Positions 2,639 to 53,058 of a stretch of 53,926 bases of DNA are shown piece by piece. Position 1 is the first letter of the stretch, and every line of letters begins with the position of its first letter. Both the position numbers and the translations under genes were made by a program. The notes under the pieces are model-generated. The model had not been told where the DNA came from. It was given only the letters and a program-made list of their open reading frames with translations, and ran no database searches. Source of the DNA: a virus; the IMG/VR virus record IMGVR_UViG_3300044946_000035, positions 1 to 53,926 of that record; one strand, written 5' to 3'.

Positions 2639-3010
2639 ATGAAACAGGTGCATGTTCTATTACTCACCCTGACACTGGCAGCGGGCCTCGGATGCGCGGC
2701 CAAGACTACCGTCACCGCGCCTATTCCCGGCGCGATCAACTCCTTTGACTCCGTAAGCTACCAGACGCTCATGGACGCGCAGGCGGCGATTAACGCGGTC
2801 AAGGCGGATGTAGCGGCAGGGAAGGTTACGCTCACCGCTACCCAGAAGACCGTACTCAACCAGGCGATTCAGGACTATGACCTTGCTCAAGCCGCATGGC
2901 AGGCTTACCACGCCGGATCCACCTCTAACACCGTGGCTCTTACTAGCGCTATTAACCAGATCGTCGCGGATATTGCCGCACTGGCAACGCAGATTCAAGG
3001 AGGAAAGTAA
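2639..3010 (+). CDS. putative lipoprotein, helical
   Basis: The 123-residue product has a basic start, a hydrophobic stretch and Cys19 after AAGLG, which is an imperfect lipobox. The mature part is Ala-rich and helical with no further Cys. In this place, after an endolysin and a holin candidate, an outer-membrane lipoprotein could serve as an o-spanin, but no matching i-spanin was recognised. It could also be a superinfection-exclusion protein. Confidence 0.55.
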   Translation: MKQVHVLLLTLTLAAGLGCAAKTTVTAPIPGAINSFDSVSYQTLMDAQAAINAVKADVAAGKVTLTATQKTVLNQAIQDYDLAQAAWQAYHAGSTSNTVALTSAINQIVADIAALATQIQGGK

Positions 3011-9180: not shown

Positions 9181-9258
9181 TGTAATGTGGTTTCAGGCTC
9201 CCGCCGTACGTACTCCGGGAAAATTGGTTCATGTTCCCATCCCCGAGCAGAGAAGTTC

Positions 9259-9734: not shown

Positions 9735-9772
9735 CTCTGTTTTCTCCTTTTCCCCGAGCAGCCCAAAAGTTG

Positions 9773-34675: not shown

Positions 34676-36859
34676 GTGCGCTGGTGGCTGCTCACATTCG
34701 TTCTGCTAACAGGATCGGCGTTCGCCCAGCTGACCACGGCGGTCACGGCCCAGGTGGCCGACGTGAATGGCTCCCCCTACGTCAACTGCCAGTGGTCGGT
34801 GACCTTTGTCGGTCAGTCCACTGCCCCCGGTGTTGGTCCTTACGCGCCCGCCGCCTTGCTCAACGGGCAGCAGGGGAAATGCGACTCAACCGGTCTCCTG
34901 ACTCTTAGCCTCGCGGATAACGTCAACACAGTCACTCCCACTCCGTCCCAGTGGCAGTTCAACATCTGCTCCGCCTCCGGCTACCCGGCTGGCCCGTACT
35001 GCTTTCAGAAACTTCTGACCATCACCGGGACCTCCCAGAACATCAGCGCGGCTCTGACTGCCGTTGCCCCAGTTCTCCCCGCGTTCAACGGGACCAATCT
35101 CCTGCCGGGGACTCCCACTGGATCAATCCAAGTGGCAACCGGGTCCTCCGTGTTCGCCGGAGCGCCGTCTCCGATATACGCATCGCAGCGTCCCGGAGCG
35201 GACTGCGGGGCCAAGATCAACTCTGCTGACGCGGCACTTGGCTCCAATGCCGGAGAAATCTGGCTGGACAAAAATTGCGGTTCGACCCTGACGACCCCTG
35301 TTACCTTGAGCGCCAACCACCACCTGAAGGTCGTCCAAGGCGGGCTCTATACCTACTGCGGAGAGTGGAAGCTCAACACTTCTTCCTCGCTCGAAGGCAC
35401 CATCTCCGGCTTTGTCGAGAACATCTCCGTCCAACCCCTGCCGCCGGTCCTCTTCCAGCAGGCTCCGGGATGCAATCTCGCGGTCAACTTCGATATCGTC
35501 GGGGCGAACGTAGCCATCTCGAACATCGGCCTCAGCTTCAACAATTCCTCAAACGCCGCCGGGGTCGGCATCCAGACTGATACCACCACCTGCTCGACCA
35601 ACGGGTGCCTCGGCCATCTTCTGCTCGACGGCGTGACCATCGCCCAAGGTTACAGCAACAACATCGTCATCCAGTCCACGGGGACGATTGACCAAGCGGT
35701 CGGCGCTCAAATCTGGCGTACCGTTTCCGAGAACTCCCTGAACGGTGACGGTCTCACCGTCCTCAAGACCACCGATGTCAAGCTCCACAACTACTTCGGC
35801 GAGACCAACGGGAACTGCGGCATCACCATCACGGGATCTACCGTCTGGACCGATACCTCTCCTGATATCTCGACCAATAACAACTGCGGCGTCTACATCT
35901 CCGGCACCCCGTCGAATCCCGCCGGCCTCGTTATCGAAATCCCTTCCATCACCTCTCCGTCCCTGACCTCGGGCGTCAACGCATCTCTCGACGGCGGGAT
36001 CGTGGTCCAAGGCTGGGACTCGACATCCTCGACCTGCAACAACGCCTCGCTCATTATCATCGGCGGAGCCTTCAGTGTTACTGGCGGCACTCAAACGAAC
36101 GCCTGGGACATGATTCACATCGAGAACACGGGCGGGGACCGGATTGCGTTCTCGAACTTCCTCGGCCCCGCTTCTGGTTCCGTCGCACGCTATGGCTATT
36201 ACCATGGCAACACCCATGCCTGCACCCTGCAACCGGATGTAATCATCGGCAACGAGTTCGTTGGGACCTTCGGCACGGGTAGCAGCTCCCTCTTCTCCTA
36301 CCTCTCCGGCGATGTCCTTCTGGCCAACAACGAAAGCGGCAACGCAGGCAGTTCGCTCGCCGAGTTCACCAATCACTACCTCCCGAATACCTATCCGCTC
36401 TACGCCGCGAACGCCGCTGGCGCTCCGCAGAAGGCATTGTTTACCGACGCCTCCAATAATCTATGGATCACGGGGGACCCGACCGCAGGCGTGATCGCGT
36501 TTCAGCCGCACGGCACGGGAGCGACGATTGCTTCCCTGACCAACTCGGGGATGCAGCTTGGGGCCTTGGCCGTCACCAATTCCGAAGTCACGCATAACAT
36601 CCTGACCGGCTCCGGCACCCTGACCTACACCGCCATCTCGACCCAGACTTGCCAAGAGCAGGCGATCACCGTCACCGGAGCTTCAGCCACAGCGGGCGCA
36701 GCAACCGCTTCCCCGAACGCCACCCTCGGCTCGACCAATCTCTCCTGGTCCGCCTGGGTGAGCGCAACCAACACGGTCTCGGTGCGTGTGTGCAACGTGG
36801 CCACGACCTCAACCATTACCCCGTCCGCAGTCACCTGGACGGCATTTGTGATGCAATGA
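34676..36859 (+). CDS. exported beta-helix fibre- or spike-like protein
   Basis: The 727-residue product starts (GTG 34676) with a Sec-type signal MRWWLLTFVLLTGSAFA|Q. The rest is rich in Gly, Asn, Thr, Ser and Val in short strand repeats, with right-handed beta-helix-like rungs in about residues 200-540 (for example GVGIQTDTTTC, SNNIVIQSTGTID), and a C-terminal Thr/Ala-rich part. It resembles tail spikes that carry sugar-cleaving helices. A signal peptide on such a protein is unusual because phage tails are built in the cytoplasm. It may be a secreted depolymerase, or a virion protein captured from a secreted ancestor. Confidence 0.65.
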   Translation: MRWWLLTFVLLTGSAFAQLTTAVTAQVADVNGSPYVNCQWSVTFVGQSTAPGVGPYAPAALLNGQQGKCDSTGLLTLSLADNVNTVTPTPSQWQFNICSASGYPAGPYCFQKLLTITGTSQNISAALTAVAPVLPAFNGTNLLPGTPTGSIQVATGSSVFAGAPSPIYASQRPGADCGAKINSADAALGSNAGEIWLDKNCGSTLTTPVTLSANHHLKVVQGGLYTYCGEWKLNTSSSLEGTISGFVENISVQPLPPVLFQQAPGCNLAVNFDIVGANVAISNIGLSFNNSSNAAGVGIQTDTTTCSTNGCLGHLLLDGVTIAQGYSNNIVIQSTGTIDQAVGAQIWRTVSENSLNGDGLTVLKTTDVKLHNYFGETNGNCGITITGSTVWTDTSPDISTNNNCGVYISGTPSNPAGLVIEIPSITSPSLTSGVNASLDGGIVVQGWDSTSSTCNNASLIIIGGAFSVTGGTQTNAWDMIHIENTGGDRIAFSNFLGPASGSVARYGYYHGNTHACTLQPDVIIGNEFVGTFGTGSSSLFSYLSGDVLLANNESGNAGSSLAEFTNHYLPNTYPLYAANAAGAPQKALFTDASNNLWITGDPTAGVIAFQPHGTGATIASLTNSGMQLGALAVTNSEVTHNILTGSGTLTYTAISTQTCQEQAITVTGASATAGAATASPNATLGSTNLSWSAWVSATNTVSVRVCNVATTSTITPSAVTWTAFVMQ

Positions 36860-38109
36860 GCCTAGTCGGCGAACTGATCCTCAGCTTCCGCGAACTGGCG
36901 ACGGACCTACCGCAGGTCATGCCGCCGCCGACGCTCGTCTCACTCGCAGGCCAGACGGTTGCTGGGGGGATCTTCCAAGCAGGAACCTATTTCGTAGTCG
37001 CCACTCTCCTGTCCAGCTTCGGAGAGACGGCGCAGTCGCTCGAACAAACCGTCACCCTGAGCGGAGGCCAGAACTCGATCCTTGGCGTTATCACCTACCC
37101 GACCACGGGCGTCACCGGAGCGCGTTTCTACGTCACCCCAGTCGGCGGGCTCGCGGGCACGGAACTCAACTTCCAGGAGTTCGATTTCTCGAACAGCATT
37201 ACCAATTTCAACATCACCAATCCCGCGACCACCGCGACTCCGCCTTCGCGCTCGACCGCCTACCTCCCGGACACCGACGGTCCGGCGCTCGGAGCCTACG
37301 CTGCGTACCGCTGGCTGAATCAAGCCCTCGCGTGGGCGGCGGGAAAGAATCGTGGCGGGCTGCCTGACTTCGGCGCGGTGGGCACGACCAATGGCATAGG
37401 CAACTATGTCATGCCGGGATACTGGAAGAAAATCGACACCGCATGGTTCGACGGCTACCCTCTCGGCCTCCTGAACAAGAACAATGTATTTCGTCGTCAG
37501 CCTGTCCCCGGTTACTCCGGCGCACTGACCATCTTCCAAGCCACCGACCGCCTGATGGTTGAGTGCTGGCCGCAACCCAATCGAACTTCCAATCAGACCA
37601 CCCTAGCCTCACCTATGGCAGCGACGGACACGGTAGCCAATCTGACCTCAACCGCCAACTTCGTGCTGGGATTTGGGATGGCCTCGATCGGCACGGAACT
37701 CGTATATTATTCGGCCATCAATAACAATCAGCTAACCGGACTCCTGCGTGGGATGTGCGGCACGACTCCGGCGGCATGGCCCACGGGAGCATCCTCGGTC
37801 GAGCTGAACCTGATGATCAGCGGCTACCGCGTACCCTCGACCTATGCCCCTGGTTCAGCCCTCTCGACCCTGTATCTCCCTCCCGGCTGGGACGAAGCCT
37901 TAACCTCGTATATGCTCCATCGCTTCCGCAAGGCCGAGCAGGACGAAAACGGGGCCAAGACCTGCTTGCAGGAGGCCACGCAAAAACTCTCGGATCTATC
38001 CGCCAACCGGATTATCGCGGGGCCACGGCAGATCCAGCCATTTGGGACGCAGGGGCCGGAGATCGCGGTCGGTCTTGGATCGCCGTTCGGGGGAGTTATC
38101 ATCCGATGA
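36856..38109 (+). CDS. head-tail adaptor or tail-tube-like protein
   Basis: The 417-residue product starts at an ATG overlapping the preceding stop. It has a beta-rich N-terminal half (LVSLAGQTVAGGIFQAGTYF, VTPVGGLAGTELNF) and a C-terminal part with LPPGWDEALTSYMLHRFRKAEQDENGAKTCLQEATQ, a helical segment like those of podovirus gp11/gp4-type adaptors. It precedes a larger tail-tube-like gene, the same order as in T7-like and P22-like phages. The family call is by order and pattern. Confidence 0.65.
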   Translation: MSLVGELILSFRELATDLPQVMPPPTLVSLAGQTVAGGIFQAGTYFVVATLLSSFGETAQSLEQTVTLSGGQNSILGVITYPTTGVTGARFYVTPVGGLAGTELNFQEFDFSNSITNFNITNPATTATPPSRSTAYLPDTDGPALGAYAAYRWLNQALAWAAGKNRGGLPDFGAVGTTNGIGNYVMPGYWKKIDTAWFDGYPLGLLNKNNVFRRQPVPGYSGALTIFQATDRLMVECWPQPNRTSNQTTLASPMAATDTVANLTSTANFVLGFGMASIGTELVYYSAINNNQLTGLLRGMCGTTPAAWPTGASSVELNLMISGYRVPSTYAPGSALSTLYLPPGWDEALTSYMLHRFRKAEQDENGAKTCLQEATQKLSDLSANRIIAGPRQIQPFGTQGPEIAVGLGSPFGGVIIR

Positions 38110-40664
38110 GCCAGATGCTCGTCCACTCCCGCTTCCTCAAGGGCCTTCAGGCAGGCTTCGACAAATTCTCGCAGCCCAAGGACTCCATCGCCCGGGTCTC
38201 GAACTTCCTGTTCACCAAGCGGGGAGCTTTAAAAGTCTGCGACGGAAGCTTGCTGCTGTCCGCGTTCAACGGAGCCTTGGAGACCCTCCCGTCCAACTTC
38301 GGAGCGTGGCTTGAACTCTTCCTCTACCAGCCCATCGGAACCGCGCCGGGGTACTTCGGGATTTACAAGGACTACGGCGCTCACCTTTTCAATCCCGGCT
38401 CTCTGGCAGCCTCAGCAGGGTCCTCGGGGGTCCTCTCTGGGACCTATTTCTATATCGTAACCGCCTCCGACGGAGCCGGAGGAGAAACCGCAGGGTCGAA
38501 CGAAGCCACGGTGACGCTTTCTTCGCAGAAAGGTTCCCTAAGCTGGACCGCAGTCCCGAACGCCGCTTCCTACAACATCTATCGAACCGCGAGCGGCGGA
38601 GCGTCCGGCACCGAAGTTCTCGCGGCGACTGGCGTCCTGACCAACTCCTACACGGATAACATCCCCGACAGTTCCCTTGGCACCAAGACTCCGCCTGCGG
38701 CCAACAACACGCAGCAGACGCAGTTTGTCGCCATCCCTTCCGGGAGCTACGGAGCGGGGAACATCGTGCGAGCGTTCCCGGCGGACGCCTTCCCGATTCT
38801 TGGCGGGATTCCCGGCGGCATCGGAGGAGGCGCTTACGGCAAAGGCGGAAACGTCTCCCCGACATTCCAAGGCGGAGTGACCGGAGCCATCTCTCCTATG
38901 CCCATGATCGTCGGATTCGTCAACAAGATGATTCTCGCGCTGGGGAACGGGATCACGCCCTTTCAATCCGACGCGACGAACCTTGGCACTATCCAGCTGA
39001 CCAACACCTTCACCGCCAGCTATCCCGCGTGGGCTACATCCGTCGCCACCAATGTCGGTGATCAGATCCAAGCGACGGTCGCCGGAACCGCGTATGTATT
39101 CACCGCCACGCAGGGAGGGATCACCAACTCCTCCGGCGCTCCAACTTTCCCCGCTACTCTCAATGCCACGGTCGTCGATGGCTCCGGTTCGACGGTGATC
39201 TGGAAAAACTCCGGCCAAGTCTCCGGTTCTCCCGTGCCTCGCGGCGCGGCGCACGAAGAAATCTACGCTGGCTCCCTTTGGGTGGCAAATACCTCTCCAA
39301 CCGAAACCTCCGACCAGCTCGACGGTCCCTCTGCCCTGCGTATGTCCGACCTCAACTCCCCGAACTCGTGGAACCCGCTGAATGCCGCCCAGATCGAGCC
39401 CGACGATGGCGATCAATGCACCGGCATCAAGGCGTTCACCATCGCTGAGGCCGGGATCGCTCCGCAGAACTTCCTGACCTATTTCAAGAACTTCTCGACC
39501 TTCATTATCCAAGGAGTATTCGGCTCGACCGACTTCTCCATCGTTCGCCTTCAGACGGACATGGGCAATATCGCTCCCCGCTCGCTTCAATTCGTCCCCG
39601 GCTTCGGCATCCTGCGGCTGTCTCACCTCGGATTCGCCAAGACCGACGGCATCACGGATCGACTGGAGAATCCCGAAGGGCTGCGTCCCTATCTGTTCGG
39701 CGGCGAGACCGATATCAACCCGGTGGACTGGAATTATCTCTACTTCTCGAAAGCCGCCCAGACCGCCAATCCTCCCATGTACGTCTGCGCCTGCCCGGTG
39801 CTGCCCATGATCGCGGGGAACATTGCATTCGTGTTCGCGGCGATGGGTTCGGGCGGATCGCTCCAGTCGGGGACTTACTGCATCAAGGCTTACCTGGTTA
39901 AGTTCAATGGCACGCTCCTATATTCGACGGAGGTCACTGCCAGCGGCGGGCCGGGGACCAAGATCACCGTCACCCTGCCCGTAGCCGCCCAGCAGGGCAA
40001 CTACTGGATCATCTACTTCGGCATCGGCTCGGGCAACGAGAACCAGTTCGTCCAGGTTCTCTCGTCGCAGACGACCGTGACCATCAGCGCTCCAGGCATC
40101 GCGGGCACCCCCGGCTCCTCAAATGGCTGGCTGACGCGCCTGTTCTGCTACGACCTCGTTCTCAAGGCATGGTCCGTCGTCGATCTCCCGTTCCCTATCT
40201 CGGTCCTGCGGCAGTTCCGTGCGCCGGGGACGATCCCCCTGACCATCATGGGAGGATTCTGGGACGGCGGGGTTCGTCGCTGGCAAGCAGGGGATGCCAC
40301 TTGGGACGCGGGCGCTACCAACAACTTCGCCCCCTCAACGGCGGTCCAGTGGAAAGTCCGAGATTCTGAGGTTTACGACGACGGCGCAACTTCAAAGCTG
40401 TTCAGCGATCAGGTTATAGTTCGCGGCGGAGACGGGATTCCCCCGACGATCACCTTGGAGGTCGTTACTGGAGGGAAGTCCCAAGGAATCCTCCCCGCAC
40501 AGATCACCAGCCTGACCGCGAACCAGTACGAGGCTCGCACGCGGGTATTGCAGACGATCGAGAATCTCCATCTGAATCTGGCTGGGTCGGGGCCGACTAC
40601 GATCGAGTCGATTGGGTATGAATTGACCAAGAAGCCGGTGGGATCGGCGCTGGTGTTCTCGTGA
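38106..40664 (+). CDS. large tail-tube or nozzle-like protein with Fn3-like insert
   Basis: The 852-residue product overlaps the previous gene by four bases (ATGA). It is beta-rich throughout. About residues 95-195 resemble a fibronectin type III domain (GTYFYIVTASDGAGGETAG, then SLSWTAVPNAASYNIYRT). Later parts, such as MSDLNSPNSWNPLNAAQIEPDDGD and LRQFRAPGTIPLTIMGGFWDG, fit the many-strand nozzle proteins (gp12/gp10-like) of short-tailed phages. The call rests on size and position. Confidence 0.65.
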   Translation: MSQMLVHSRFLKGLQAGFDKFSQPKDSIARVSNFLFTKRGALKVCDGSLLLSAFNGALETLPSNFGAWLELFLYQPIGTAPGYFGIYKDYGAHLFNPGSLAASAGSSGVLSGTYFYIVTASDGAGGETAGSNEATVTLSSQKGSLSWTAVPNAASYNIYRTASGGASGTEVLAATGVLTNSYTDNIPDSSLGTKTPPAANNTQQTQFVAIPSGSYGAGNIVRAFPADAFPILGGIPGGIGGGAYGKGGNVSPTFQGGVTGAISPMPMIVGFVNKMILALGNGITPFQSDATNLGTIQLTNTFTASYPAWATSVATNVGDQIQATVAGTAYVFTATQGGITNSSGAPTFPATLNATVVDGSGSTVIWKNSGQVSGSPVPRGAAHEEIYAGSLWVANTSPTETSDQLDGPSALRMSDLNSPNSWNPLNAAQIEPDDGDQCTGIKAFTIAEAGIAPQNFLTYFKNFSTFIIQGVFGSTDFSIVRLQTDMGNIAPRSLQFVPGFGILRLSHLGFAKTDGITDRLENPEGLRPYLFGGETDINPVDWNYLYFSKAAQTANPPMYVCACPVLPMIAGNIAFVFAAMGSGGSLQSGTYCIKAYLVKFNGTLLYSTEVTASGGPGTKITVTLPVAAQQGNYWIIYFGIGSGNENQFVQVLSSQTTVTISAPGIAGTPGSSNGWLTRLFCYDLVLKAWSVVDLPFPISVLRQFRAPGTIPLTIMGGFWDGGVRRWQAGDATWDAGATNNFAPSTAVQWKVRDSEVYDDGATSKLFSDQVIVRGGDGIPPTITLEVVTGGKSQGILPAQITSLTANQYEARTRVLQTIENLHLNLAGSGPTTIESIGYELTKKPVGSALVFS

Positions 40665-41056
40665 TTAGTCAACTCGAAATCCGCCACCCCCACGTCAACG
40701 AGGTCCCTGATGACCTGATGGTCGGCTTCGAGTGCTTCAAGATGGACCCGGAGTTCCAGTGGGTGCTGATCGTGGACGGGAAAGTAAAAGCCCAGATGAT
40801 GTGCGCGAACATGGCCGGGATACTGTTCATCATCCGTCTGGTGTCCCACGCCGACGCCCCGCACGGATGGGCGGTACAATTCTTCCGCCACGTCATGCGC
40901 GAGGCCAAGGCTAACGGGATGATCGGCTATGCTACATTTCTCTCGGATAAGACCGAGGGAGAGCGTAAGCTGATGAAAATCGTTCAGCGGGTAGGTGGCT
41001 TGCTTTGTCCTGTGAGCGGCGTGTGGGCTTTCGGAAGTACCGAGGTGAACTACTGA
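40661..41056 (+). CDS. GNAT-like acetyltransferase
   Basis: GTG 40661 overlaps the preceding stop. The 131-residue product has FQWVLIVDGKVKAQMMC, then a GILFIIRLVSHADAPHGWAVQFFRHVMREAKANGMIGYATFLSDK segment, following the strand-helix-strand of GNAT enzymes with an [RQ]-x-x-G-x-[GA]-like turn less clear than usual. Small GNAT genes in this place among internal-virion genes are common in short-tailed phages. The substrate is not known. Confidence 0.6.
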   Translation: MISQLEIRHPHVNEVPDDLMVGFECFKMDPEFQWVLIVDGKVKAQMMCANMAGILFIIRLVSHADAPHGWAVQFFRHVMREAKANGMIGYATFLSDKTEGERKLMKIVQRVGGLLCPVSGVWAFGSTEVNY

Positions 41057-41415
41057 TGCCTCCGATTTTAGGAATTGCGGGATTGTTGCCAGCCTTAATC
41101 GGTGCTGGGGTGACCGGGGTGACCACGGGACTTGAAGCCTCGGGTGCAATCGGTGGTGGGGGTGGTCCATCGCAAGCCACCCAGCAACAGGAACAGTTGA
41201 CGCAGCAGGAAGCGGCCCAGAAGCAGCAACAGCAACAGTTGCAGCAGACGTTCAAGTCGTTCGCTCCTGACGCGCAGGCGCAAACCGGAGGCTCGCTGTC
41301 AGACTCCTCCTTTGCTTCCCTAGTAGCGGAGTTAGCGGGCCAGCCGGGGAACATCGGGACAGCGCAGCAGACGATCTTCGGCAGCACGCCGGAATCGGGA
41401 TTGGGGGCATCGTAA
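41056..41415 (+). CDS. internal-virion or ejection-like small protein
   Basis: The 119-residue product has a hydrophobic N-terminal stretch (ILGIAGLLPALIGAGVTGVTTGLE), a Gly run, a Gln-rich middle (QQQEQLTQQEAAQKQQQQQL) and a Ser/Ala end. It overlaps neighbours at both ends (TGATG and TAATG). The hydrophobic Gly-rich start followed by Gln-rich coil resembles small ejection proteins. Confidence 0.55.
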   Translation: MPPILGIAGLLPALIGAGVTGVTTGLEASGAIGGGGGPSQATQQQEQLTQQEAAQKQQQQQLQQTFKSFAPDAQAQTGGSLSDSSFASLVAELAGQPGNIGTAQQTIFGSTPESGLGAS

Positions 41416-42029
41416 TGTCGGAAGTTCTCTCACAAATCGGCACCTTCCTCGGCTCGACCACGGGCAAGGGACTGCTCACCGCCGGAACCGCTGGCGGCGG
41501 ACTGATCCAGAACATCCTCGCCAACCGTGAGGCCCAGCAGAAGCAGAACTTCGTCGAACAGCTGGTTACTAACCCGGCGAAATGGAATGCCTTCGTGGCC
41601 TCGAAGGAGCAACCTTTGCAGGCTGGACTGACCGCTGACATCGCCCGTTCAACCGACGCTTACGGAGCCGAACGCGGGCTCGGGTCGTCCCCGGCGGTGA
41701 TGAAGGATGTCTACGCGCAGGCATTGGCCCCGTACATCCAGAACGAGCAACAAATGGCGCAGAATGCCGCATTGCAATCCCTCGGTATCTACGAAGGCTC
41801 CCCGACCACCAAGCCAATCGACGTATCCTCTATTCTGAAAGCGTTCATGTCGATGCCAGGAAACCGTCCGGGGCCGTTCAACAGCATCCCGCCAGCGGTC
41901 CAGGGCGGAGCCCCTGGAGGAGTCCCGGTGCAATCCTCGCCGATACCGGATCAGATTCCCGGCAATGACCCATTCAGCTTGGATTCGCTCATCAGCGGCG
42001 GGGGGTACAGCGGAGGGGAGTTGGGATAA
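41415..42029 (+). CDS. internal-virion-like protein
   Basis: The 204-residue product has a Gly/Thr/Ala-rich N-terminus (GKGLLTAGTAGGGLIQNILA), a helical middle (QNFVEQLVTNPAKWNAFVAS) and a Pro/Gly-rich C-terminal third. Such arrangements are seen in podovirus internal-virion proteins ejected into the cell with the DNA. It starts at the base where the gene before it ends. Confidence 0.6.
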   Translation: MSEVLSQIGTFLGSTTGKGLLTAGTAGGGLIQNILANREAQQKQNFVEQLVTNPAKWNAFVASKEQPLQAGLTADIARSTDAYGAERGLGSSPAVMKDVYAQALAPYIQNEQQMAQNAALQSLGIYEGSPTTKPIDVSSILKAFMSMPGNRPGPFNSIPPAVQGGAPGGVPVQSSPIPDQIPGNDPFSLDSLISGGGYSGGELG

Positions 42030-42193
42030 TGGAAAAAAGAACAAGATTGTTATGCCTAGCTATATTGAGAATCCGTTGTGTGTGCGGGCATTCTGGTTGG
42101 CAGCATCATGGACGTGTGGTAAATCGGCAGCGATTTTGGTGTGCCAGCACAACAAATTGCAAATCGTGCAAGTGTAAGAATTGGAGCGCATAG
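42029..42193 (+). CDS. Cys-rich 54-residue protein in an A+T-richer insert
   Basis: ATG 42029 overlaps the previous stop (TAATG). The product is basic with CVCGH at residues 18-22 and CASTTNCKSCKC near the end, enough for one or two zinc sites. Codon use (AGA, TTA, ATA, CTA) differs from the neighbours, which suggests recent arrival. Its place among internal-virion genes is unusual for a zinc protein. No family was recognised. Confidence 0.5.
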   Translation: MEKRTRLLCLAILRIRCVCGHSGWQHHGRVVNRQRFWCASTTNCKSCKCKNWSA

Positions 42194-42196
42194 AGA

Positions 42197-42304
42197 ATGG
42201 CTATAGCCCTCTGGTTGACTCGACGGCGTGGTTGGGCAGCTGGGTGGCTATACTTGGGAATATTGTTATGGAGAAAGTTTCGACACGGTGATGTTTGCAA
42301 TTAA
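42197..42304 (+). CDS. 35-residue basic, Trp-rich peptide
   Basis: A short frame begins three bases after the Cys-rich gene and encodes MAIALWLTRRRGWAAGWLYL and 15 more residues. It is basic and amphipathic, so it may be membrane-active. There is no convincing ribosome site. With the previous gene it forms an island of about 275 bases between two internal-virion genes. Confidence 0.4.
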   Translation: MAIALWLTRRRGWAAGWLYLGILLWRKFRHGDVCN

Positions 42305-42315
42305 CCGGAGGATCA

Positions 42316-43401
42316 ATGGGCGGAGCACTTAGTATTCTGACATCTCTCGGCTCGGTCGCCAACCAGTACGGCGAGGCGAAGAATGAGAAATCGGCGGAGG
42401 ACTTTGCCCGTTCCGAGAAGCTGAAGCAGATGAGCACGCAGGACGCTTATCTTCAGTTAGCCAAGCAGCAGGAGGAGCGGCAGCAACAGGAGTTTGAGTT
42501 CAAGAAGAAATCCGGTGAGATCATCCCGATGGGGGATGGCCGATTCTGGTCGGTCTCGCAGCAGAAGTTCCTCGAACAACCGAAAGTTGATGAAGCAGAA
42601 GTATTCAAGCAGTTCTTTGATCAGAATCTCGATCCACGAGAGAAGAAACTGCTTGCTCCGCGCTTGCATCTCGCAGCGCAGCGATATCCTTACGATAAGG
42701 AAAAGATGCTCGGGGAGGCACAGTCCGAGGCGGACAAAGTTCATCAGGAAATAGCGCGACAGGACGCAGCAACGCTGGCTGAGACCAATCGTCAGCAGGA
42801 CAAGAAGGACTTGCAGGAGTTTCAATCGAAGCAGGACGAACAGCGACGACGGGAACGTCTTGAAGATCGCAAGAATCTGATGGATTACTCGAAGAATCTG
42901 ATGGGTCTAAAGCCGACTGCCGACGAGGTCCGTCGCGCTGACCTCGCGGAAAACGTGAACGAGAACCTCGATGCGCTGGAAGAGATCGTGAAGCGCCGTC
43001 CTGAACTATTCGGCCCCCTCCACGGAACCTTTACCACCCTTCGCGGGAAGGTTGGAACCAGCGATCAGGATATCGCTGCCTTAGAGCAAATTCGGGACAA
43101 CCTGGGCCGCGCCTTGCAGGGAGCGCACGGAATGCGATCCGCGACCGGAGTCATCAGCGCGGGGAACTCAGTCCTCAATGGATTCCGCAACAGCGACAAG
43201 GCAATCCTGTCCGCGATTGACCGGGCGAGGTCGAGCGTGGGGACATTTATCGGGGATGTGCAGCGGAAGGCGGGAGCGGGGGCCGCTGGACCGCCTCAGC
43301 CGAGCGGAGCGACACAGAGATTCACCTCTGGAGGGAAGACTTACAATATCCCCGCTGATAAGGTAGCGGAGTTCAAGAAGGATCACCCGGATGCCCGATA
43401 A
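42316..43401 (+). CDS. coiled-coil internal-virion-like protein
   Basis: CCGGAGGA lies before ATG 42316. The 361-residue product has a short Gly-rich hydrophobic start, then a long charged helix region (residues 25-210, with QQEERQQQEFEFKKKSG and QDEQRRRERLEDRKNLM), a second helical domain and a Gly/Pro tail. Long coiled-coil proteins in this place are often ejected internal-virion proteins. The last bases overlap the next gene. Confidence 0.6.
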   Translation: MGGALSILTSLGSVANQYGEAKNEKSAEDFARSEKLKQMSTQDAYLQLAKQQEERQQQEFEFKKKSGEIIPMGDGRFWSVSQQKFLEQPKVDEAEVFKQFFDQNLDPREKKLLAPRLHLAAQRYPYDKEKMLGEAQSEADKVHQEIARQDAATLAETNRQQDKKDLQEFQSKQDEQRRRERLEDRKNLMDYSKNLMGLKPTADEVRRADLAENVNENLDALEEIVKRRPELFGPLHGTFTTLRGKVGTSDQDIAALEQIRDNLGRALQGAHGMRSATGVISAGNSVLNGFRNSDKAILSAIDRARSSVGTFIGDVQRKAGAGAAGPPQPSGATQRFTSGGKTYNIPADKVAEFKKDHPDAR

Positions 43402-44539: not shown

Positions 44540-44697
44540 GCCCAGTCAGTAAATACTTCAAAGGCCACGGCGAGGAAGTCATGTCCAACATGGAGAAAGA
44601 ATACGGCAAGGACGAAGGCAAGCGCGTGTTCTACGCTACGGCCAACAAACGCGACAAGAAGAAACGCAAGAACAAAAGAAGGAGCAAACGAGCATGA
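44536..44697 (+). CDS. basic 53-residue micro-protein with GHGEEVM motif
   Basis: The product begins MSPVSKYFKGHGEEVMSNME, continues GKDEGKRVFYATANKR and ends in a run of Lys and Arg. Small proteins with GHGxxVM...VFYATANKR are shared by many phages, always of unknown function. It overlaps the giant fibre gene by four bases (ATGA at 44694-44697). Confidence 0.65.
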   Translation: MSPVSKYFKGHGEEVMSNMEKEYGKDEGKRVFYATANKRDKKKRKNKRRSKRA

Positions 44698-47600
44698 ACC
44701 GACTACGCGCATTACTCATTACTCTCGCCCTGGCCTGCGCCCTCAGCCCCCCGGCGCTCGCCCAGACCTCGATCAATCAAGCCGGAGGCATCGGCAATGG
44801 CGGCACCGACTGTTCGACCGCCATCAACTGCGTGATCCTCCAGATATCTCCGGGGAGTCTCGGTTCCGCTTCCATCTGGGTCACGGGCACATGGAGCGCT
44901 ACGCTTCAGTTCGAGGTCACCTCCGATATCATCGCCAGCGGCTCGACCAACACCCAACTGAATGCGCTCACCTGGGTCTCGGTCAACGCGTTTCCCTCGA
45001 CTTCCACCACGGGCGCGAGCAACACGACCACAAATGGCCTCTGGGTACTGAACGCAGCCAATATCACCGGCCTGCGGGTCCGGGCATCGACTTACGCCTC
45101 CGGTCTCGTCAACGTAACCCTCCGGGCATCCACTGCTTCTGCCCGTAACAATGGCGGCGGCTCCGGCAGCGGGGTAGGCATCTATACGGTGGCTACCCTG
45201 CCTTCGGGCCTGGGCGCGGGTGGCACGGGAACTCTCGATACGGTCAAGGACGGTTCGACGGCAAGCGACTGCACTGTCGGCGGTGGAAGCAATGCCGTGG
45301 CTTGCATTTGGACCGGCGCGGCGTGGGCCTTCGCGGGATCGTCCGCAGCGGCTCCGGCGTTCTCGGCGATTACGAGCGCGACTAACACCTCGGCGACTAT
45401 GACTTGCGGCGCGGGTTGCACCATGACCACGACCAGCACTGGGGTCAACAATGCGAACGAGGTTAACGGGGGAACGGTCCCGGCCAGCGCTCCCTTAGTC
45501 GGTACCAACTCCAGCAAGCAGCCGATATCGGTAACCACGATTCCGACCTCAACCGTCCCGGCATTCACCGGGGACATGACCAACACTGCCGGTTCGCTCG
45601 CCACCACGGTTGGCCAGGTCAACGGTGCCGCGCTGCCCGCATCGGCCACATTTGCCGGGACCAATGGCAGCAACCAGGTGATCGCTACGGCCTGCACCTC
45701 GGCGGATCTGGTCGTCGGTAACGCTTCCAATAAGCCGGCTTGTGTGGCCCTCACGGGAGACTCTACCCTTACGAATGCCGGTCTTATGACCAATACCGCC
45801 CTGAATGGAGGATCGGTTCCAGCATCGGCTAAAGTGCTTGGCACCAACGGCTCCTCGCAGCCGATCGCGGCAGCTTTGACCTCAGCTCACCTCTATGTCG
45901 GCAACGCAAGCAACCTTCCGGCGGACGTGGCTTTGACCGGAGACTCGACGCTTACCAACGCTGGACTGATGACCAACACGGCCATCAATGGAGGCGCATT
46001 CCCCACCTCCGCCTCGGTCATCGGATCGAATGGCAGCGCCCAGCCGGTTACTGCCACCGCCCACGGCATCCAGGCCCCGCAGGATTGCAACGACGCTTCC
46101 GGCTCGGGAACGGCGCAAACATGCAGCACCACGGTTACCTTCACGCTGGGCCAGAAGGATTGCGTCAACTACACGCCGGGGACCACCAACACGGGAGATG
46201 TGACGCTCGCGGTGAACAGCGGCACGGCTTACCATTTTTACAAGTGGGGAGGGTCTTCCACGCTGGCGTCGGGAGATCTGGTGGCGGGCGTGACGCAGGT
46301 GGTATGTCTCGATTCCAGCAACCGATTTGAGCTGCCTACGGTCGGCAACCCTCCAGCGTCCGGCGCGACGATTAACAACCAGAATCAGTACGGAGCGCCT
46401 TACTATTCCACCTCGGGGTCGAATAACACCCTCAGCGGAATCGCCCCTCCAACCACGCAGGGATACTTTAATCAGGACTGGGTGAATACGACCAACGCGG
46501 CATCCGCTCCCCAAGTTGTCCAAGTCGGCCTCACCGGGCGGTCGCTTACCGGATCGGCTACTACCTGTGGAGGCTCCGGCGTTCTCTACAGCGATGTCGC
46601 CAGCTGGATTGATCACGACCAGGCCGCGACAGGAACGGTGAATTGCTCCCTGCCGACGCCAGCCACGTTGAACAACACCAGTTTCGCCTTCCGCTATACC
46701 AACCACTCGGCACAGACGGATACGATCACGCCAGCGGGGGGCTATACGATCCAGCTCGGCTCAGGAGCGGCGGCGTCAACTCTCAGCGTGGCGTCGGGAG
46801 TAGGCTGCGGGATCATCGTTGATCCGAACTCGGCGTCAAACTGGCTGGCAGACTGCTCAAACATCAACGGGACTACGGGCACAGGCACGGTCACGCACAG
46901 CGTCGGCGCGCTGACACCGCTCTACGCCCCAGTGATCGCCAATGGAGGAGCGGATGTTCAGAGTACGGGCGGGGGCTATATCATGCTGCCTCCCTTGACC
47001 TCCGGGTCCGATGTATGCGGCCCGCTGAACACCGCCCTCCTTGCAGCCCAGACTGCTGGCGTGGTGACCCCAAAGATCGACCTTTCGGGAATCGGCCCGA
47101 ATGTCATCTGTACCAGCGATCCCTTCGTTGGATTCACGAGCGTTAACGGCGCGGAAATCGACATCGGCGGCGGCACCATCTCCACCAACGTACCGATTGG
47201 GCTTCCCTACCGCGTGAGCCTGCACGGAACGTTTGGTTCGGGTAGCAGCATTAACGCCAGCACCACCTTTCACACCAACTACCCGACGATTGTCGGGACG
47301 ACGGCCTCGAACGACACCATCTGTTTCTCCAACGGAAACACGACGGTCATCTCGGGAACGAATGTGTCTGGCACTTGCACCGCAGGGGGCATAGCGTCTT
47401 TTGCCGGAGTGTTACCCCACTATGTTTTGCTGATGTGTCCGGGCACGACGCCCGCTTGCAATCCCGGTAATACTTTAGCAGTTGGAATCGTCCAAAGCGT
47501 GTCGAGTACAACGGCAGGCAATTCGTCGCTAACCCTTCAGCTTGGCCCATCGGGCAGCCTGACCATCCCGACCAGCGGGACCGGGTACCACTATGCGTTC

Positions 47601-49868
47601 GTGGCCCCACTGTTCTTTACCAGCTACCAGAACCAGTCGGGAGGCCTGATCACCACTAATTATCAGGAGTTGGAGCATGTCAGTCTGGGGGTAAACGATT
47701 CGACCTCTGGCGTCACCGACTGTCACTTTGGCTATTTCAATATGACAGGGCAAGAAGGCGTCTGGATGAACGATGTCAAGATCACCGACTCCTGCTGGGC
47801 TTATGTCGGGCAGTTCGAGCCGGGAGAGAACTCTGGCCCGCATCGCAATCTATACCTGTTATCGACCAAGGGATACTCATCGTCTATCGGAGGAGTCGGA
47901 ATCGTCGCCCGTGTGGCTACCTGGCACGGAGTACAAGACTCGACTATCAACATTCGCAATAGCACTTCTGAAACTGCGGTGACGGGCATTCTGGCCGCGA
48001 ACGGCTACAACGCACATGCGGGGACCTTGCCCAACTACGGCCCGGCCCAGTACATCCGTAACCACATCGAAATCGCAGGCGCGGGAGACGCGATCCAGAT
48101 CGGAGATGCTCTGGTATGGCCATGGGCCGCGAATGGCGAAGGTTTATCCGCTGTCAGCTTTGCCAACAACAGCGGCGGGCCGTCGAACGCGGGGAATCTC
48201 TATCACGTGATGAACGCGACCGGAGCCAGTGGAAGTTACAACGTCATTATCGACAACAGCGCCACGGAAGATGTCAACGCGCAATCGAACTGCATCAAGG
48301 ACGACGTAAATACGCTGAATTATGCGAACTGCCCTGTCCACTGGGCGGGCCCGGCGCAAGTCGCATCCGCCCCGGATATCATCGACGGAGGAGTGACCGC
48401 CTTCGGTCCGCTGGATATCGGAACGGTGGGCACGGCTGGCGTGCTTGGACTAGTCGGCTCGACCTCCGGCATAGCTACCTGCACTGCGCCAGCGGTCGCC
48501 GGGACGAGCACCAACGCGGTTGTCTGTACGAATAATCTCCAGGCTCCTGCGCTGGTCTCAACTGTAGCGATCGGCACCGCGCCACTCACTGTGACCTCGA
48601 CCACAGTTGTGCCGAACCTGAATGTCTCACAGCTCCTCGGGAAGACCTGGGCGGTTCCGTCCACCATCGGCAGCACCACGCCGAACACAGGTGCGTTCAC
48701 TACTCTGAGCGCATCGGGACAGGCCTCGGCTACCGCTGCCGGAGCGGCGTCCACCCCCGGCCTTCTCGTGTCCGGCGCTCCCTACACTGGTGGCTCCTCT
48801 TCAACCACCCAGCCGCAGGTGTATGTAAGCTCTGGCGGGTCAGTCACGGGATTCTCGACCGCAGGCACCGTATTCGGCATGAACGCGCCCTCGGGATTCA
48901 CCGGCAACCTGATTGATAGTTTCGTGAACGGCGGCGCGTCTCACTTATTCACGGTCAATTATCAGGGGAATATCACTGCCGGGTCATTGGCTGAAAATCT
49001 TTTGGCCGGAGCATCAGCGGCGGCTACCATTACTGAAGGTGGATCAACCTTCAGTGTGACGAGGGCAGGAGTATCTACCGCAAACCTAACCTATCCTTGG
49101 GTGTTCACGAACGCCAACTCGACGAACAACAATACTTCCGGGGTTGTGGGATTTAGCGCCAGCGGATCATCGACGGGCCAAACGGTAATGAATCTGAATC
49201 AGGCCACGACGGGCGGAGACATCCTCGACTGGGGCACGGGCGGATCATACTCGGCAGGAGTGCTCTCGGGGCAGACAATCTCTGGAAGCATCCTTGAGAA
49301 CGGTTCGATTCAGACCAAGGGAACAACTGCTGGATTCGTCGCCATGTCTCAGGGTTCGACCAGTTCAGGGGTCGCGCCTTGCAATGCAGCAACTACAATC
49401 TGTTTCCAGGCTCCAACTTCAGTTACATCGCAACTCCGTGTTCTGGCAGGCGCTCCGGCGACTGGATTCCCTTTGTACACCAACTCATCTGGCACGATGA
49501 CGGAGACAATCAGTGCGACCAGTGGGACGCTTAGCTCAGGAGTTGGAGTTCTGGGCACGCTAGCGGTGAACGCCGTTCTTGCTTCAACGGTAGCCAATGC
49601 CGCAGGCCATTTCACCAATCTCCAAGTCGTGACTTCGCTAGGCGGCACATGTTCAACGGTTCCAATCTTCAACGTGTTCGACGGAACAACGAACACTGGC
49701 TCGACGGTCACTGCGACATCGAGCACACAGACCAAGGGAACGGGCACCAGCACGGCACAGACCCTCACCTTTGCGGCGGGAGATGTGATTGGTATCTACA
49801 TTTCAACGGCAGGGGCGACATGCACCCTAGATCAATTCGTCGTCTCGGCGCAATACTCGATCCCATGA
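44694..49868 (+). CDS. giant exported fibre-like protein, 1724 residues
   Basis: A Sec signal (MNRLRALLITLALACALSPP, cleaved near ALA|Q24) leads into a Gly/Ser/Thr/Asn-rich chain. Residues about 280-460 contain three near-identical units of 61 residues (VGNASNKPACVALTGDSTLT and copies). The middle (about 770-1230) has beta-helix-like rungs, for example GLITTNYQELEHVSLGVND and SRNxxLLSTKGYSSSIGG-like strands, as in spikes that cleave surface glycans. The C-terminal third is again repeat-rich. Almost 10 percent of the genome is spent on this gene, so it is likely the main adhesion fibre, or a large secreted adhesin. Confidence 0.65.
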   Translation: MNRLRALLITLALACALSPPALAQTSINQAGGIGNGGTDCSTAINCVILQISPGSLGSASIWVTGTWSATLQFEVTSDIIASGSTNTQLNALTWVSVNAFPSTSTTGASNTTTNGLWVLNAANITGLRVRASTYASGLVNVTLRASTASARNNGGGSGSGVGIYTVATLPSGLGAGGTGTLDTVKDGSTASDCTVGGGSNAVACIWTGAAWAFAGSSAAAPAFSAITSATNTSATMTCGAGCTMTTTSTGVNNANEVNGGTVPASAPLVGTNSSKQPISVTTIPTSTVPAFTGDMTNTAGSLATTVGQVNGAALPASATFAGTNGSNQVIATACTSADLVVGNASNKPACVALTGDSTLTNAGLMTNTALNGGSVPASAKVLGTNGSSQPIAAALTSAHLYVGNASNLPADVALTGDSTLTNAGLMTNTAINGGAFPTSASVIGSNGSAQPVTATAHGIQAPQDCNDASGSGTAQTCSTTVTFTLGQKDCVNYTPGTTNTGDVTLAVNSGTAYHFYKWGGSSTLASGDLVAGVTQVVCLDSSNRFELPTVGNPPASGATINNQNQYGAPYYSTSGSNNTLSGIAPPTTQGYFNQDWVNTTNAASAPQVVQVGLTGRSLTGSATTCGGSGVLYSDVASWIDHDQAATGTVNCSLPTPATLNNTSFAFRYTNHSAQTDTITPAGGYTIQLGSGAAASTLSVASGVGCGIIVDPNSASNWLADCSNINGTTGTGTVTHSVGALTPLYAPVIANGGADVQSTGGGYIMLPPLTSGSDVCGPLNTALLAAQTAGVVTPKIDLSGIGPNVICTSDPFVGFTSVNGAEIDIGGGTISTNVPIGLPYRVSLHGTFGSGSSINASTTFHTNYPTIVGTTASNDTICFSNGNTTVISGTNVSGTCTAGGIASFAGVLPHYVLLMCPGTTPACNPGNTLAVGIVQSVSSTTAGNSSLTLQLGPSGSLTIPTSGTGYHYAFVAPLFFTSYQNQSGGLITTNYQELEHVSLGVNDSTSGVTDCHFGYFNMTGQEGVWMNDVKITDSCWAYVGQFEPGENSGPHRNLYLLSTKGYSSSIGGVGIVARVATWHGVQDSTINIRNSTSETAVTGILAANGYNAHAGTLPNYGPAQYIRNHIEIAGAGDAIQIGDALVWPWAANGEGLSAVSFANNSGGPSNAGNLYHVMNATGASGSYNVIIDNSATEDVNAQSNCIKDDVNTLNYANCPVHWAGPAQVASAPDIIDGGVTAFGPLDIGTVGTAGVLGLVGSTSGIATCTAPAVAGTSTNAVVCTNNLQAPALVSTVAIGTAPLTVTSTTVVPNLNVSQLLGKTWAVPSTIGSTTPNTGAFTTLSASGQASATAAGAASTPGLLVSGAPYTGGSSSTTQPQVYVSSGGSVTGFSTAGTVFGMNAPSGFTGNLIDSFVNGGASHLFTVNYQGNITAGSLAENLLAGASAAATITEGGSTFSVTRAGVSTANLTYPWVFTNANSTNNNTSGVVGFSASGSSTGQTVMNLNQATTGGDILDWGTGGSYSAGVLSGQTISGSILENGSIQTKGTTAGFVAMSQGSTSSGVAPCNAATTICFQAPTSVTSQLRVLAGAPATGFPLYTNSSGTMTETISATSGTLSSGVGVLGTLAVNAVLASTVANAAGHFTNLQVVTSLGGTCSTVPIFNVFDGTTNTGSTVTATSSTQTKGTGTSTAQTLTFAAGDVIGIYISTAGATCTLDQFVVSAQYSIP
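45532..46080 (+). repeat. tandem coding repeats in the giant fibre gene, unit 183 bases
   Basis: Two clear units start near 45715 and 45898, 183 bases (61 codons) apart; a more diverged unit precedes them from about 45532. Each encodes VGNAS-x-x-PA-x-VALTGDSTLTNAGLMTNTA-like sequence followed by NGG, then PASA, then GTNGS-x-QP. Such repeats often recombine and change fibre length. Confidence 0.7.
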
Positions 49869-50668
49869 GAAAACTACTCATCTTCGTTGTACTCATCGCG
49901 GCTTCGTTTCTCCATGCTCAAGGCGGGATCGGGGGTAAGGGTGGTATTGGCGGGAAGGGTGGGATTGGGGGAGGGGTAACGAGTGGCGGCGGCAGTGTCA
50001 CAATCGCAAACCACTCTGCACCAAATAGTGCGTGCAGCGGTTCTACGACCTGTACGATTTCCATCACTGTAGGAACAACCGGAGACACGGTAGTCGGGGA
50101 GCTTCAGGGTTGCGTAGGAGCGAGTTGTGTCGCAGATACGGGTTGTACGTTCGCTGTCACTGATGGGACAAACACTTATTCGGCCATCTCTGGAGCCACC
50201 CTCCACGCGGTTACCGGAATACTTGGTTTCTACCCATTTGTTGCCGTTAACGCTACAGCAGGTACGTACACTCTGACCTTTACGATCAGCGGAGCCAGTT
50301 GCAACAGCGGTTCGCCAGCATTCGACTATGCTTATGTTTCTTACGCAGATTTTGCTGGGGCAAGCACGTCGTCCTCGGTTGATTCTGCCGTATCGAACAC
50401 CCACGTAGGTTCTACGTTCGTCACATCAGACAGCATCACTACCGCAGGCAATGTAGCTTTCTCTGGAGAGGTAATTTATACCGACATAGACAGCTCTGGG
50501 GCAGTCGCAATGACTGCCTGCTCCACTCTGGATGCCGCATTCAACGGTGGCGTATCCATTACTGCCGATTCAGTTCATCCAGCATCCGGTGGTACCGTCA
50601 CATGTTCGTGGTCACAAAATTCCGCTTCGGGTGCCGCACGAGCGACCATAATCGGTATCCACCCATGA
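49865..50668 (+). CDS. exported Gly-repeat and Cys protein
   Basis: The 267-residue product has a Sec signal (MRKLLIFVVLIAASFLHA|Q), then three GGIGGKG repeats (residues 20-36), then a beta-rich domain with several Cys (SACSGSTTCTISITVG, LQGCVGASCVADTGC) that may form disulfides. Disulfides fit a protein that leaves the cytoplasm. It follows the giant fibre gene by an ATGA overlap and may be a partner of it. Confidence 0.65.
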   Translation: MRKLLIFVVLIAASFLHAQGGIGGKGGIGGKGGIGGGVTSGGGSVTIANHSAPNSACSGSTTCTISITVGTTGDTVVGELQGCVGASCVADTGCTFAVTDGTNTYSAISGATLHAVTGILGFYPFVAVNATAGTYTLTFTISGASCNSGSPAFDYAYVSYADFAGASTSSSVDSAVSNTHVGSTFVTSDSITTAGNVAFSGEVIYTDIDSSGAVAMTACSTLDAAFNGGVSITADSVHPASGGTVTCSWSQNSASGAARATIIGIHP

Positions 50669-53058
50669 AGCGGCTGCTGCTTACAATCTGCTTGATACTC
50701 TGCTCCATTTATAGTTCTGCCCAAGCATGGTCAGGAATCCTTGCTACGTCTAGAGCTATCGACTGGTCGAGTGTTGGTGCTGCAAATATCGGCACCCCCC
50801 GGACCCAATGCGGTGCGACGATTGCCGCTTACGGGTCGAGTGGTACTCCGCAATCCGCCGCAGCAATCAACACAGCACTCGCCGCCTGTCCTTACAACGG
50901 CTTCGTTCTGCTCGGCCCGGGCACGTTCTACCTGAATACCGGAATCTACTTTCCGTTTGGCGGGAGTAATAGCTCAGGATGCTCGACCAACTGCTCAAAT
51001 GTGACTCTGCGTGGGTCCGGGCCAAGCTCGACATTCATCATTTTCAGCGGTGGCACATCGTCAAGCTATTGCAACCCCCACTCAATCTGCGCCTCTGGTT
51101 CGTCGAACAACTATGCTGGAGGGCCGTCAAATTCCGCGAGTTGGGCGGCAGGGTATTCTCAGGGAACGATCTTGATCACGCTGAATAGTTTGGTCAATTC
51201 GGCTCCCGTCGTGGGCCAGCCCATCATTCTTGATCAGATCGACAACCAATCAGACAATGGCGCGCTGTATATCGGCTGCGAATATCCTGATGGTTCGACT
51301 TCCTGCCCAAACATCAGCCAAGTCGCGAGTGGCTACCAGCGCGGCGAAGGTTCTTATACCACCGTCCGAGGGCAGCAACAATTTGTCACCGTGACAAGCA
51401 TCTCAGGCTCGGGCACTGGACCGTACACAGTCGGCATTACGCCCGGACTCTACGCTTCTAACTGGAATGCGGTTCCGGGCACAAGTCTCCCCGGCGCATG
51501 GTGGGCTTCTGGCCCGGTTTACAATGATGGCGTCGAGAGTCTGTCTGAAGACCTGACAGCGTGGACGAATGCGGGCGGAAGTGGGATCACGTTTTACAAC
51601 TGTCAAGGCTGTTGGGTGAAGGCCGTTCGCAGCATTACATCATCAGCGGGGGGGACCGGATGGTATCACGTCGGCTTCGCCAACTCCAACCACGGCACGG
51701 TTCGCGACTCGTATTTCTACGGCTATCAAGGTGATGATTATGGCGTCTCGACCTATGGCGCGGGCGACATTCTCACCGAGAACAACATCCACCAGTACCC
51801 AGCGGAAAACGGCTTCTATAACTCTGACTGTGAAGGCTGCGTCTCGACTTATGAGTTTACGGTAAATCCCTACTTCGGACAATCGGCAAACTGGCTGGCC
51901 CAGCCTTCCGATTTTCACAGCATCGCATTGTTCACGCTCTTTGAAGGCAATATCGGGGCGGGAATCTATGAAGATGACTTCCACGGCAGCCATGGGCTGA
52001 ACACGCAATTTAGAAACCGCTGGGATGGAAGAGAGCAGAACAACGGCGGGGCAACGAGTAGTCAGACTCTGGCAATGGTTCTCTACCCAAACGCCCGGTA
52101 TAACAACACGGTCGGAAACGTCCTTGGCACTCCCGGCTATCACACGACCTACAAAACGACGCCAACGCAGTGCCCAACTCCCGGCACCTGTGCGGCGTGG
52201 GACACGACCGTCATCGGGGCCGGGGTGGGGAATACAGTCAGCGCCAATGATGCCTTGGTCAATACCACTTCGATGTTCTGGGGCAATTGGGACAATGTGG
52301 ACAACACAACGCGCTGGTGTGGAAACTCCTCGAATACAGGCTGGTCCACCACCTGTGGAAGCGTCTCGGAAGTTCCAACGGGGCTGAGTTCCTACGCGAA
52401 TACCGTCCCCGCAACCCAGACTCTTCCGTCATCGTTCATTTACACGACGAAACCTTCCTGGTGGACTTCGGGAAAAGCGTGGCCCAACATCGGGCCGGAC
52501 GTGACGGGCGGAAATGTCGGCCAGTGCTCAGGGGGAACCTATGACAGCTCAGAGGTTCTGAGTCCCGGCTCGAACTGCACCGGAGGGACGTTTACGGCGG
52601 TCGGGGGTGGCCTTGTGGTGAGCAATCCGGCAATGGACTGCTACTTCGCCATGGGCGGAAATCCGAATGGAACGGGTAGTGCGCTGACGGGCTTCAATTC
52701 GAGTAATTGTCCATACCTGGCCCCAGCAACGCAAGCCTCGGCTCCGTCCTGCACTCCAACCTCCGGCACCGTCCCCCAGACCGTAACCTGCACCAATCCG
52801 AACTCCGGTACGACGGTCATGTGCTACAACTTCACGGGTGGCCCCACAACAGATGGCACGGGAGCAGGCTGCGGGGCTGGCAGCACAAAATACACGACGG
52901 CGCTGACGATCTCCGTGCCGGAAACGCTTTACATCGTCGCCGGAACAAGCACACTGACGGACAGTGCGGTATCGTCGTACAGATACCTTGGCACATCGGC
53001 TCGCCCTGTGAATCTCATCATCGCCCGGCAACTACAGAATGCGGAGGCCTCTCAATGA
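50665..53058 (+). CDS. exported beta-helix spike-like protein with CHB_HEX-like end
   Basis: The 797-residue product has a Sec signal (MKRLLLTICLILCSIYSSA|Q). Residues 55-110 (GTPQSAAAINTALAACP, then GPGTFYLNTGIYFP) match the start of the pectate-lyase-like tail-spike domain, where a tail begins after an A-x-x-A-x-x-A helix. A long beta-helix follows with NNIHQYPAENGFYNSDCEGC. Residues about 690-775 (PSCTPTSGTVPQTVTCTNPN, YTTALTISVPETLYIVAG) resemble a chitobiase C-terminal-like (CHB_HEX) domain. It probably binds or cuts a surface glycan. It overlaps its neighbour by ATGA. Confidence 0.7.
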   Translation: MKRLLLTICLILCSIYSSAQAWSGILATSRAIDWSSVGAANIGTPRTQCGATIAAYGSSGTPQSAAAINTALAACPYNGFVLLGPGTFYLNTGIYFPFGGSNSSGCSTNCSNVTLRGSGPSSTFIIFSGGTSSSYCNPHSICASGSSNNYAGGPSNSASWAAGYSQGTILITLNSLVNSAPVVGQPIILDQIDNQSDNGALYIGCEYPDGSTSCPNISQVASGYQRGEGSYTTVRGQQQFVTVTSISGSGTGPYTVGITPGLYASNWNAVPGTSLPGAWWASGPVYNDGVESLSEDLTAWTNAGGSGITFYNCQGCWVKAVRSITSSAGGTGWYHVGFANSNHGTVRDSYFYGYQGDDYGVSTYGAGDILTENNIHQYPAENGFYNSDCEGCVSTYEFTVNPYFGQSANWLAQPSDFHSIALFTLFEGNIGAGIYEDDFHGSHGLNTQFRNRWDGREQNNGGATSSQTLAMVLYPNARYNNTVGNVLGTPGYHTTYKTTPTQCPTPGTCAAWDTTVIGAGVGNTVSANDALVNTTSMFWGNWDNVDNTTRWCGNSSNTGWSTTCGSVSEVPTGLSSYANTVPATQTLPSSFIYTTKPSWWTSGKAWPNIGPDVTGGNVGQCSGGTYDSSEVLSPGSNCTGGTFTAVGGGLVVSNPAMDCYFAMGGNPNGTGSALTGFNSSNCPYLAPATQASAPSCTPTSGTVPQTVTCTNPNSGTTVMCYNFTGGPTTDGTGAGCGAGSTKYTTALTISVPETLYIVAGTSTLTDSAVSSYRYLGTSARPVNLIIARQLQNAEASQ

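Follow-up and report, generated by a model that had tools for sequence, protein, structure and literature searches.

The stretch of DNA analysed here (hereafter the window) is a virus record of 53,926 bases (IMGVR_UViG_3300044946_000035 of IMG/VR), circularly complete as judged from a 127-base terminal repeat. It is the genome of a podophage of an uncultured soil family and carries four late genes, P1 to P4 (Table 1), whose products begin with a Sec signal peptide. These products had been singled out in a preliminary description, made from the sequence alone, as Sec-tagged fibre- or spike-like proteins, and all four N-termini read as stated there: VRWWLLTFVLLTGSAFA before QLTT in P1, MNRLRALLITLALACALSPPALA before QTS in P2, MRKLLIFVVLIAASFLHA before QGG in P3 and MKRLLLTICLILCSIYSSA before QAW in P4. 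A home-made rule-based predictor, which looks for a positive n-region, a charge-free hydrophobic core and an A/V-x-A site at the true start codon, calls all four as Sec/signal-peptidase-I substrates. None of 46 structural proteins of P22, T7, epsilon15, LUZ24 and lambda is positive with the same predictor, so the signals of P1 to P4 are beyond chance. The sole positive in this control-phage set is lambda Lom, a genuine exported outer-membrane protein.

Wrong start choice, named in the preliminary description as one thing that could overturn its claim, is rejected as an artefact since the starts of P3 and P4 are fixed by ATGA overlaps with the preceding stop. The start of P2 overlaps the last codons of the upstream gene, and P1 starts with a GTG that lies two bases past the TAA of its upstream neighbour and is preceded by GGAG. 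Two tiny, strongly basic genes (34569–34673 and 44536–44697) each lie directly upstream of one tagged gene.

The chains are rich in Gly, Thr and Asn, as previously noted (Gly, Thr, Ser and Asn together make up 41–46%), and the longest is indeed P2. Their mature cysteine counts are all even, and the proteins of the head, the adaptor and the virion interior encoded nearby have 0–8 cysteines. Pfam and PHROGs searches of the four proteins gave nothing meaningful, and tblastn searches of cultured phages with P2, P4 and the N-terminus of P1 gave no match. A single-sequence structure model of P1 was discarded (predicted local distance difference test, pLDDT, 37). The four Sec-tagged proteins of the preliminary description are confirmed, but their number was too low: the window also encodes a fifth Sec protein, P0007, which is possibly a captured host gene, and a lipoprotein.

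Table 1. Coordinates of the tagged genes, their signals and other features of the window
Feature	Position	Strand	Remarks
P1, Sec-tagged spike/fibre	34676..36859	+	727 residues, 16 mature Cys; decoration-like gene on one side, adaptor on the other
P1 signal peptide	34676..34726	+	17 residues, AFA↓Q
A1, conserved N-terminal beta-sandwich domain of P1	34736..34969	+	directly behind the signal; untagged in some relatives
P2, Sec-tagged giant fibre-like protein	44694..49868	+	1724 residues, 32 mature Cys
P2 signal peptide	44694..44762	+	23 residues, ALA↓Q
P3, Sec-tagged	49865..50668	+	267 residues, 8 mature Cys; ATGA-coupled to P2
P3 signal peptide	49865..49918	+	18 residues, LHA↓Q
P4, Sec-tagged, beta-helix-like sequence	50665..53058	+	797 residues, 24 mature Cys; ATGA-coupled to P3
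P4 signal peptide	50665..50721	+	19 residues (SSA↓Q) or 21 residues (AQA↓W)
P0007, fifth Sec protein	15563..16690	-	repeat protein (NxxGNLYG motifs), host-type homologues; outside the tail module
Major capsid protein (phrog_9953)	33010..33999	+	family marker
Head-tail adaptor-like gene	36856..38109	+	untagged; ATGA-coupled to P1; weak SU10 adaptor match
Large tail protein	38106..40664	+	untagged; nozzle/tubeB position
Internal-virion-protein-like genes	41415..44539	+	no signal, no Cys; Sec spikes begin right behind
Lipoprotein, Rz1/o-spanin-like	2639..3010	+	weak Rz match; beside putative lysis genes

Tagged genes in the viral family

Viral-contig searches queried directly with P1 and P4 returned no relatives, and the major capsid protein (MCP) was therefore taken as the family query. 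It has 74 relatives in IMG/VR, and its only matches among cultured phages are the Myxococcus phages Mx8 and Mx9 (25–26% identity; E = 1e-10 for Mx8) and one further record; a search for it through genome contigs gave no confirmed match. The window also encodes a terminase and a portal (phrog_156), assigned, like the weak SU10 adaptor match, by Pfam and PHROGs profile searches. The family, defined via relatedness of the MCP (phrog_9953), was compared in 27 genomes, the window included, the 26 relatives being examined fully or nearly fully.

Conservation of the signals in relatives, which had been put forward as a check, is observed: nearly all 27 genomes carry Sec-tagged, cysteine-rich spike/fibre genes, at two late positions that are shared between them. 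The first position is flanked by the decoration-like gene and the adaptor, the second comes directly after the cysteine-free internal virion proteins, and either or both are occupied. Among genes of at least 250 residues, 55 of 214 score as Sec in the late block versus 6 of 221 elsewhere, and most of those 6 are also spike-like. The late block shows no evident fibre gene that is untagged. The place directly after the internal virion proteins is the usual fibre slot (PMC10386132), and the location of the tagged genes fits the spike/fibre slot of tailed phages.

Cysteines, signal drift and domain A1

Full disulfide pairing predicts even cysteine numbers and needs an oxidising compartment. The mature cysteine count is even in 46 of 51 tagged proteins (p = 1e-9) versus 43 of 86 untagged structural proteins from the same genomes, and median cysteine densities are 20.7 and 4.5 per 1000 residues, respectively. 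The bias persists when sequences are clustered, 45 of 50 clusters being mostly even (p = 2e-9). Fourteen proteins carry an odd number of cysteines within the signal itself, and 11 of them become even only after cleavage. A lineage-wide cysteine bias is rejected, as untagged structural proteins encoded in these genomes are cysteine-poor and the fibres of Tunturi_3, an isolated phage of an Acidobacteriota host, are also untagged and low in cysteine (in the half of its genome that was examined). These counts show mature chains adapted to an oxidising compartment.

The signals of 30 proteins are about 19% identical in pairwise comparison, whether the domain behind them is 25% or 70% identical. Their pattern, not their sequence, is therefore kept, as in true signal peptides: an A/V-x-A consensus occupies -3/-1, the rest of the signal is near-random and the domain right behind it is conserved. 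In P1, this domain is A1 (about 80 residues), which is present in 26 of the 27 genomes and is preceded by a signal in 23 of these 26. It stands untagged at the N-terminus in the three others (G015, G017 and G034) and begins, in untagged relatives, just where the signal of tagged ones ends. In G015 and G017, A1 forms a separate, untagged protein of 226 residues without any cysteine, followed by a tagged cysteine-rich protein; this pair is perhaps an adaptor and an exported spike.

Some phage proteins are generally known to have hydrophobic N-termini, and those of the tagged proteins could conceivably stay uncleaved, as a tail anchor or membrane contact of a structural part residing in the cytoplasm or the virion. 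This is hardly probable given the Ala/Val-x-Ala at -3/-1 within otherwise near-random sequence, the better cysteine parity once the signal is removed and the position of the junction with A1. The three independent tests (cysteines, signal drift and untagged A1) all argue that the signals work: cleavable and placed at correct starts, they look functional and are positionally conserved over the family. Among the options of the preliminary description, export during infection is thus strongly supported by the signals and cysteine parity, from which we infer the export step itself.

Another of these options is that genes for secreted proteins were captured from a host and that their signals are mere leftovers, of no use in infection. 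It draws on P0007, which is clearly host-type, and on the body of P4, which has a 39% identical homologue inside a secreted Acidobacteriota protein of 2918 residues (G164, piece L208, reverse complement 1008–9764). As the whole story it is very improbable: the signals persist over a family whose MCPs go down to 43% identity while the signal sequence turns over, the mature cysteines remain even and what follows the signals are N-terminal domains of phage type. What may stand of it is an origin of some spikes by host capture, because of the P4 homologue.

Role of the tagged proteins

The predicted fold of A1 is confident (pLDDT 83), and the named viral fold neighbours of the model include several tail fibre proteins. 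The top profile match is the N-terminus of the ur-lambda side tail fibre (9e7m), of lambda Stf type, and is weak (E = 0.77; hhalign P = 0.003 at 11% probability); the Pfam fibre-N models do not match A1. The C-terminus of P1 has no relation to that of any other A1 protein. A fixed N-terminus with a variable C-terminus, as in the A1 proteins, is the usual layout of receptor-binding proteins (PMC10386132), A1 being the putative tail-binding part here. In a prophage-like region of an Acidobacteriota genome (G292), an untagged A1 protein is encoded right after a tape-measure-like gene.

Isolated phages show related arrangements. Mx8 p64 (36781–37854, piece L182), annotated as hypothetical, joins a 28-residue signal to a fibre N-terminus, a domain that begins at the initiator Met in one Stenotrophomonas and one Bradyrhizobium phage; PHROGs classes p64 as tail fibre, and its Mx9 homologue is so annotated. 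Mx8 p66 (38169–38822) also opens with a signal-like segment. Tunturi_1 and Tunturi_2 are plaque-forming podophages of Tunturiibacter (PMC11924767). Both carry four large consecutive Sec-tagged genes, annotated as tail spike, pectin lyase, tail fibre or virion structural protein, with even mature cysteine counts (20, 10, 20 and 32/34). The MCP of Tunturi_1 falls in the same PHROG (9953) as that of the window, its ORF17 matches a spike of a family genome (G033) at 42% identity over 611 residues, and the part of its genome examined holds no large untagged fibre gene. The siphophage Tunturi_4 has two further Sec-tagged spikes; Tunturi_3 infects the same host strain as Tunturi_1.

The reading to which we lean, if only slightly, is that the tagged proteins are the tail spikes or fibres of the phage (receptor-binding and probably depolymerising), made as Sec precursors and joined to the virions late. 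The tagged proteins are likely virion components; their late attachment to the particles is what we infer. It is rather unlikely that the proteins are exported without being virion parts and act around the infected cell as depolymerases, adhesins, decoys or blockers of receptors. Signals and paired cysteines prove export only, and lambda Lom shows that an exported protein can be encoded next to tail fibres. A secreted role is most readily conceivable for the A1-less P3 and P4, P4 also resembling a region of a secreted host protein. A purely secreted set would, however, leave most family phages and Tunturi_1 without an obvious fibre or spike. The first mature domain of many tagged proteins recurs without a signal at the corresponding gene position in relatives, Mx8 p64 bears an ordinary fibre N-terminus, and a conserved N-terminus with a variable C-terminus is a receptor-binding protein pattern. 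The finishing of virions outside the cytoplasm, also listed in the preliminary description, is thus favoured over a secreted non-virion role, owing to the fibre slot, the lack of an evident untagged late fibre, the fibre-like fold of A1 and the p64 fusion.

Several observations weigh against spikes joined late to virions. P2, P3 and P4 have no A1 domain, which therefore makes no case for their attachment to virions. G034 has two untagged A1 proteins that are still cysteine-rich and even (16 and 12), so cysteine richness is not strictly bound to the signal. The PDB fold matches of A1 are weak, and intradiol dioxygenases rank best (E about 0.02), only slightly above 9e7m; an identity of A1 as such an enzyme was set aside, as its alignment lacks the conserved His/Tyr set. 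Finally, the homology of P4 to a secreted host protein would be expected just as well of a secreted enzyme acquired by capture.

If the tagged proteins are late-joining spikes, the process can be viewed as follows. The spike precursors would be exported late in infection and cleaved by signal peptidase I at Ala↓Gln, and the oxidising periplasm would be where the mature chains fold and form disulfide bonds, while heads with short tails would be built in the cytoplasm as usual. Once holin, endolysin and spanin open the cell, DNA-filled particles would meet a pool of finished spikes, which would dock by their N-terminal domain (A1 in P1) at or after lysis. P22 tailspikes attach in vitro to finished heads, which makes late docking plausible. 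Possible gains would be disulfide-hardened spikes for life in soil and a cytoplasm kept free of large, sticky lectins or hydrolases. Whether the lineage splits its assembly in this way, with heads and tails made in the cytoplasm and disulfide-bonded spikes exported by Sec and added to them only in the periplasm or during lysis, and whether phages of Acidobacteriota and Myxococcota both do so, is in our judgement evenly balanced.

Host, significance and known systems

The host of the family is likely an Acidobacteriota, as judged from the ten confirmed relatives of P0007 (all Acidobacteriota), the spikes in common with Tunturi_1 and the signal+A1 genes found in phage-like settings in two Acidobacteriota genomes; no CRISPR link to a host and no prophage belonging to precisely this family turned up. 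One provirus-like region of this phylum (G300) encodes a signal+A1 protein and an endolysin like that of the window; its remaining genes are not tailed-phage-like, and it may be a non-tailed virus. Periplasmic disulfide machinery is frequent in such hosts, VKOR in 29 and the DsbA-like thioredoxin family in 51 of 80 genomes. The lipoprotein of the window suggests a diderm host. It belongs to a set of putative lysis genes (2011–3356) that comprises an endolysin-like gene (2011), a membrane protein (2413), the lipoprotein itself (2639) and a hydrophobic protein (3012).

Assembly of textbook tailed phages is wholly cytoplasmic. To our knowledge, their fibres lack export signals, and late joining of spikes outside the cytoplasm is not a known mode of assembly. 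No description of Sec-tagged tail spikes was found in the open-access literature, subscription papers and preprints lying outside this scope, and the earlier estimate that such proteins are rarely described appears right. This is potentially a new assembly route for an otherwise known kind of protein. If it is true, virion maturation ends outside the cytoplasm, heavily disulfide-bonded receptor-binding proteins become possible, and host Sec, signal peptidase and Dsb/VKOR become infection factors; annotation also becomes harder, as such genes resemble captured host secreted proteins. The question is open to testing in laboratory phages, namely Mx8 on Myxococcus xanthus and Tunturi_1 and Tunturi_2 on Tunturiibacter.

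Among the closest known arrangements is the Mx8/P22-like module (Myxoctovirus Mx8, PhiGT1; PMC10386132), which has the same order of terminase, portal, MCP, adaptor, large tail protein, internal virion proteins and fibres. Mx8 further shares an MCP related at 25% and, in p64, a fibre with a signal peptide, whereas the spike set of the window family is different and much larger, nearly all Sec-tagged and cysteine-rich, with little sequence identity. Between the large tail protein and the internal proteins, the window has a small gene (40661–41056) at the position of a GNAT-like acyltransferase in Mx8 (p53) and epsilon15 (gp13). The Tunturi phages (podophages Tunturi_1 and Tunturi_2, siphophage Tunturi_4) are likewise Acidobacteriota phages with consecutive Sec-tagged, even-cysteine spike genes, but their genomes are unlike those of the window family and A1 was not detected in the spikes of Tunturi_1; signal peptides are unmentioned in the main text of their report (PMC11924767). 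The N-terminus of lambda Stf is a similar small beta-sandwich at a fibre start, as far as a weak sequence and fold match can tell, but Stf has no signal peptide and A1 no Pfam fibre-N match. Lambda Lom and other exported 'moron' proteins are Sec-tagged and encoded within the tail-fibre region like the proteins described here, yet Lom, which comes from a temperate phage, is a small protein of the outer membrane without a spike-like chain.
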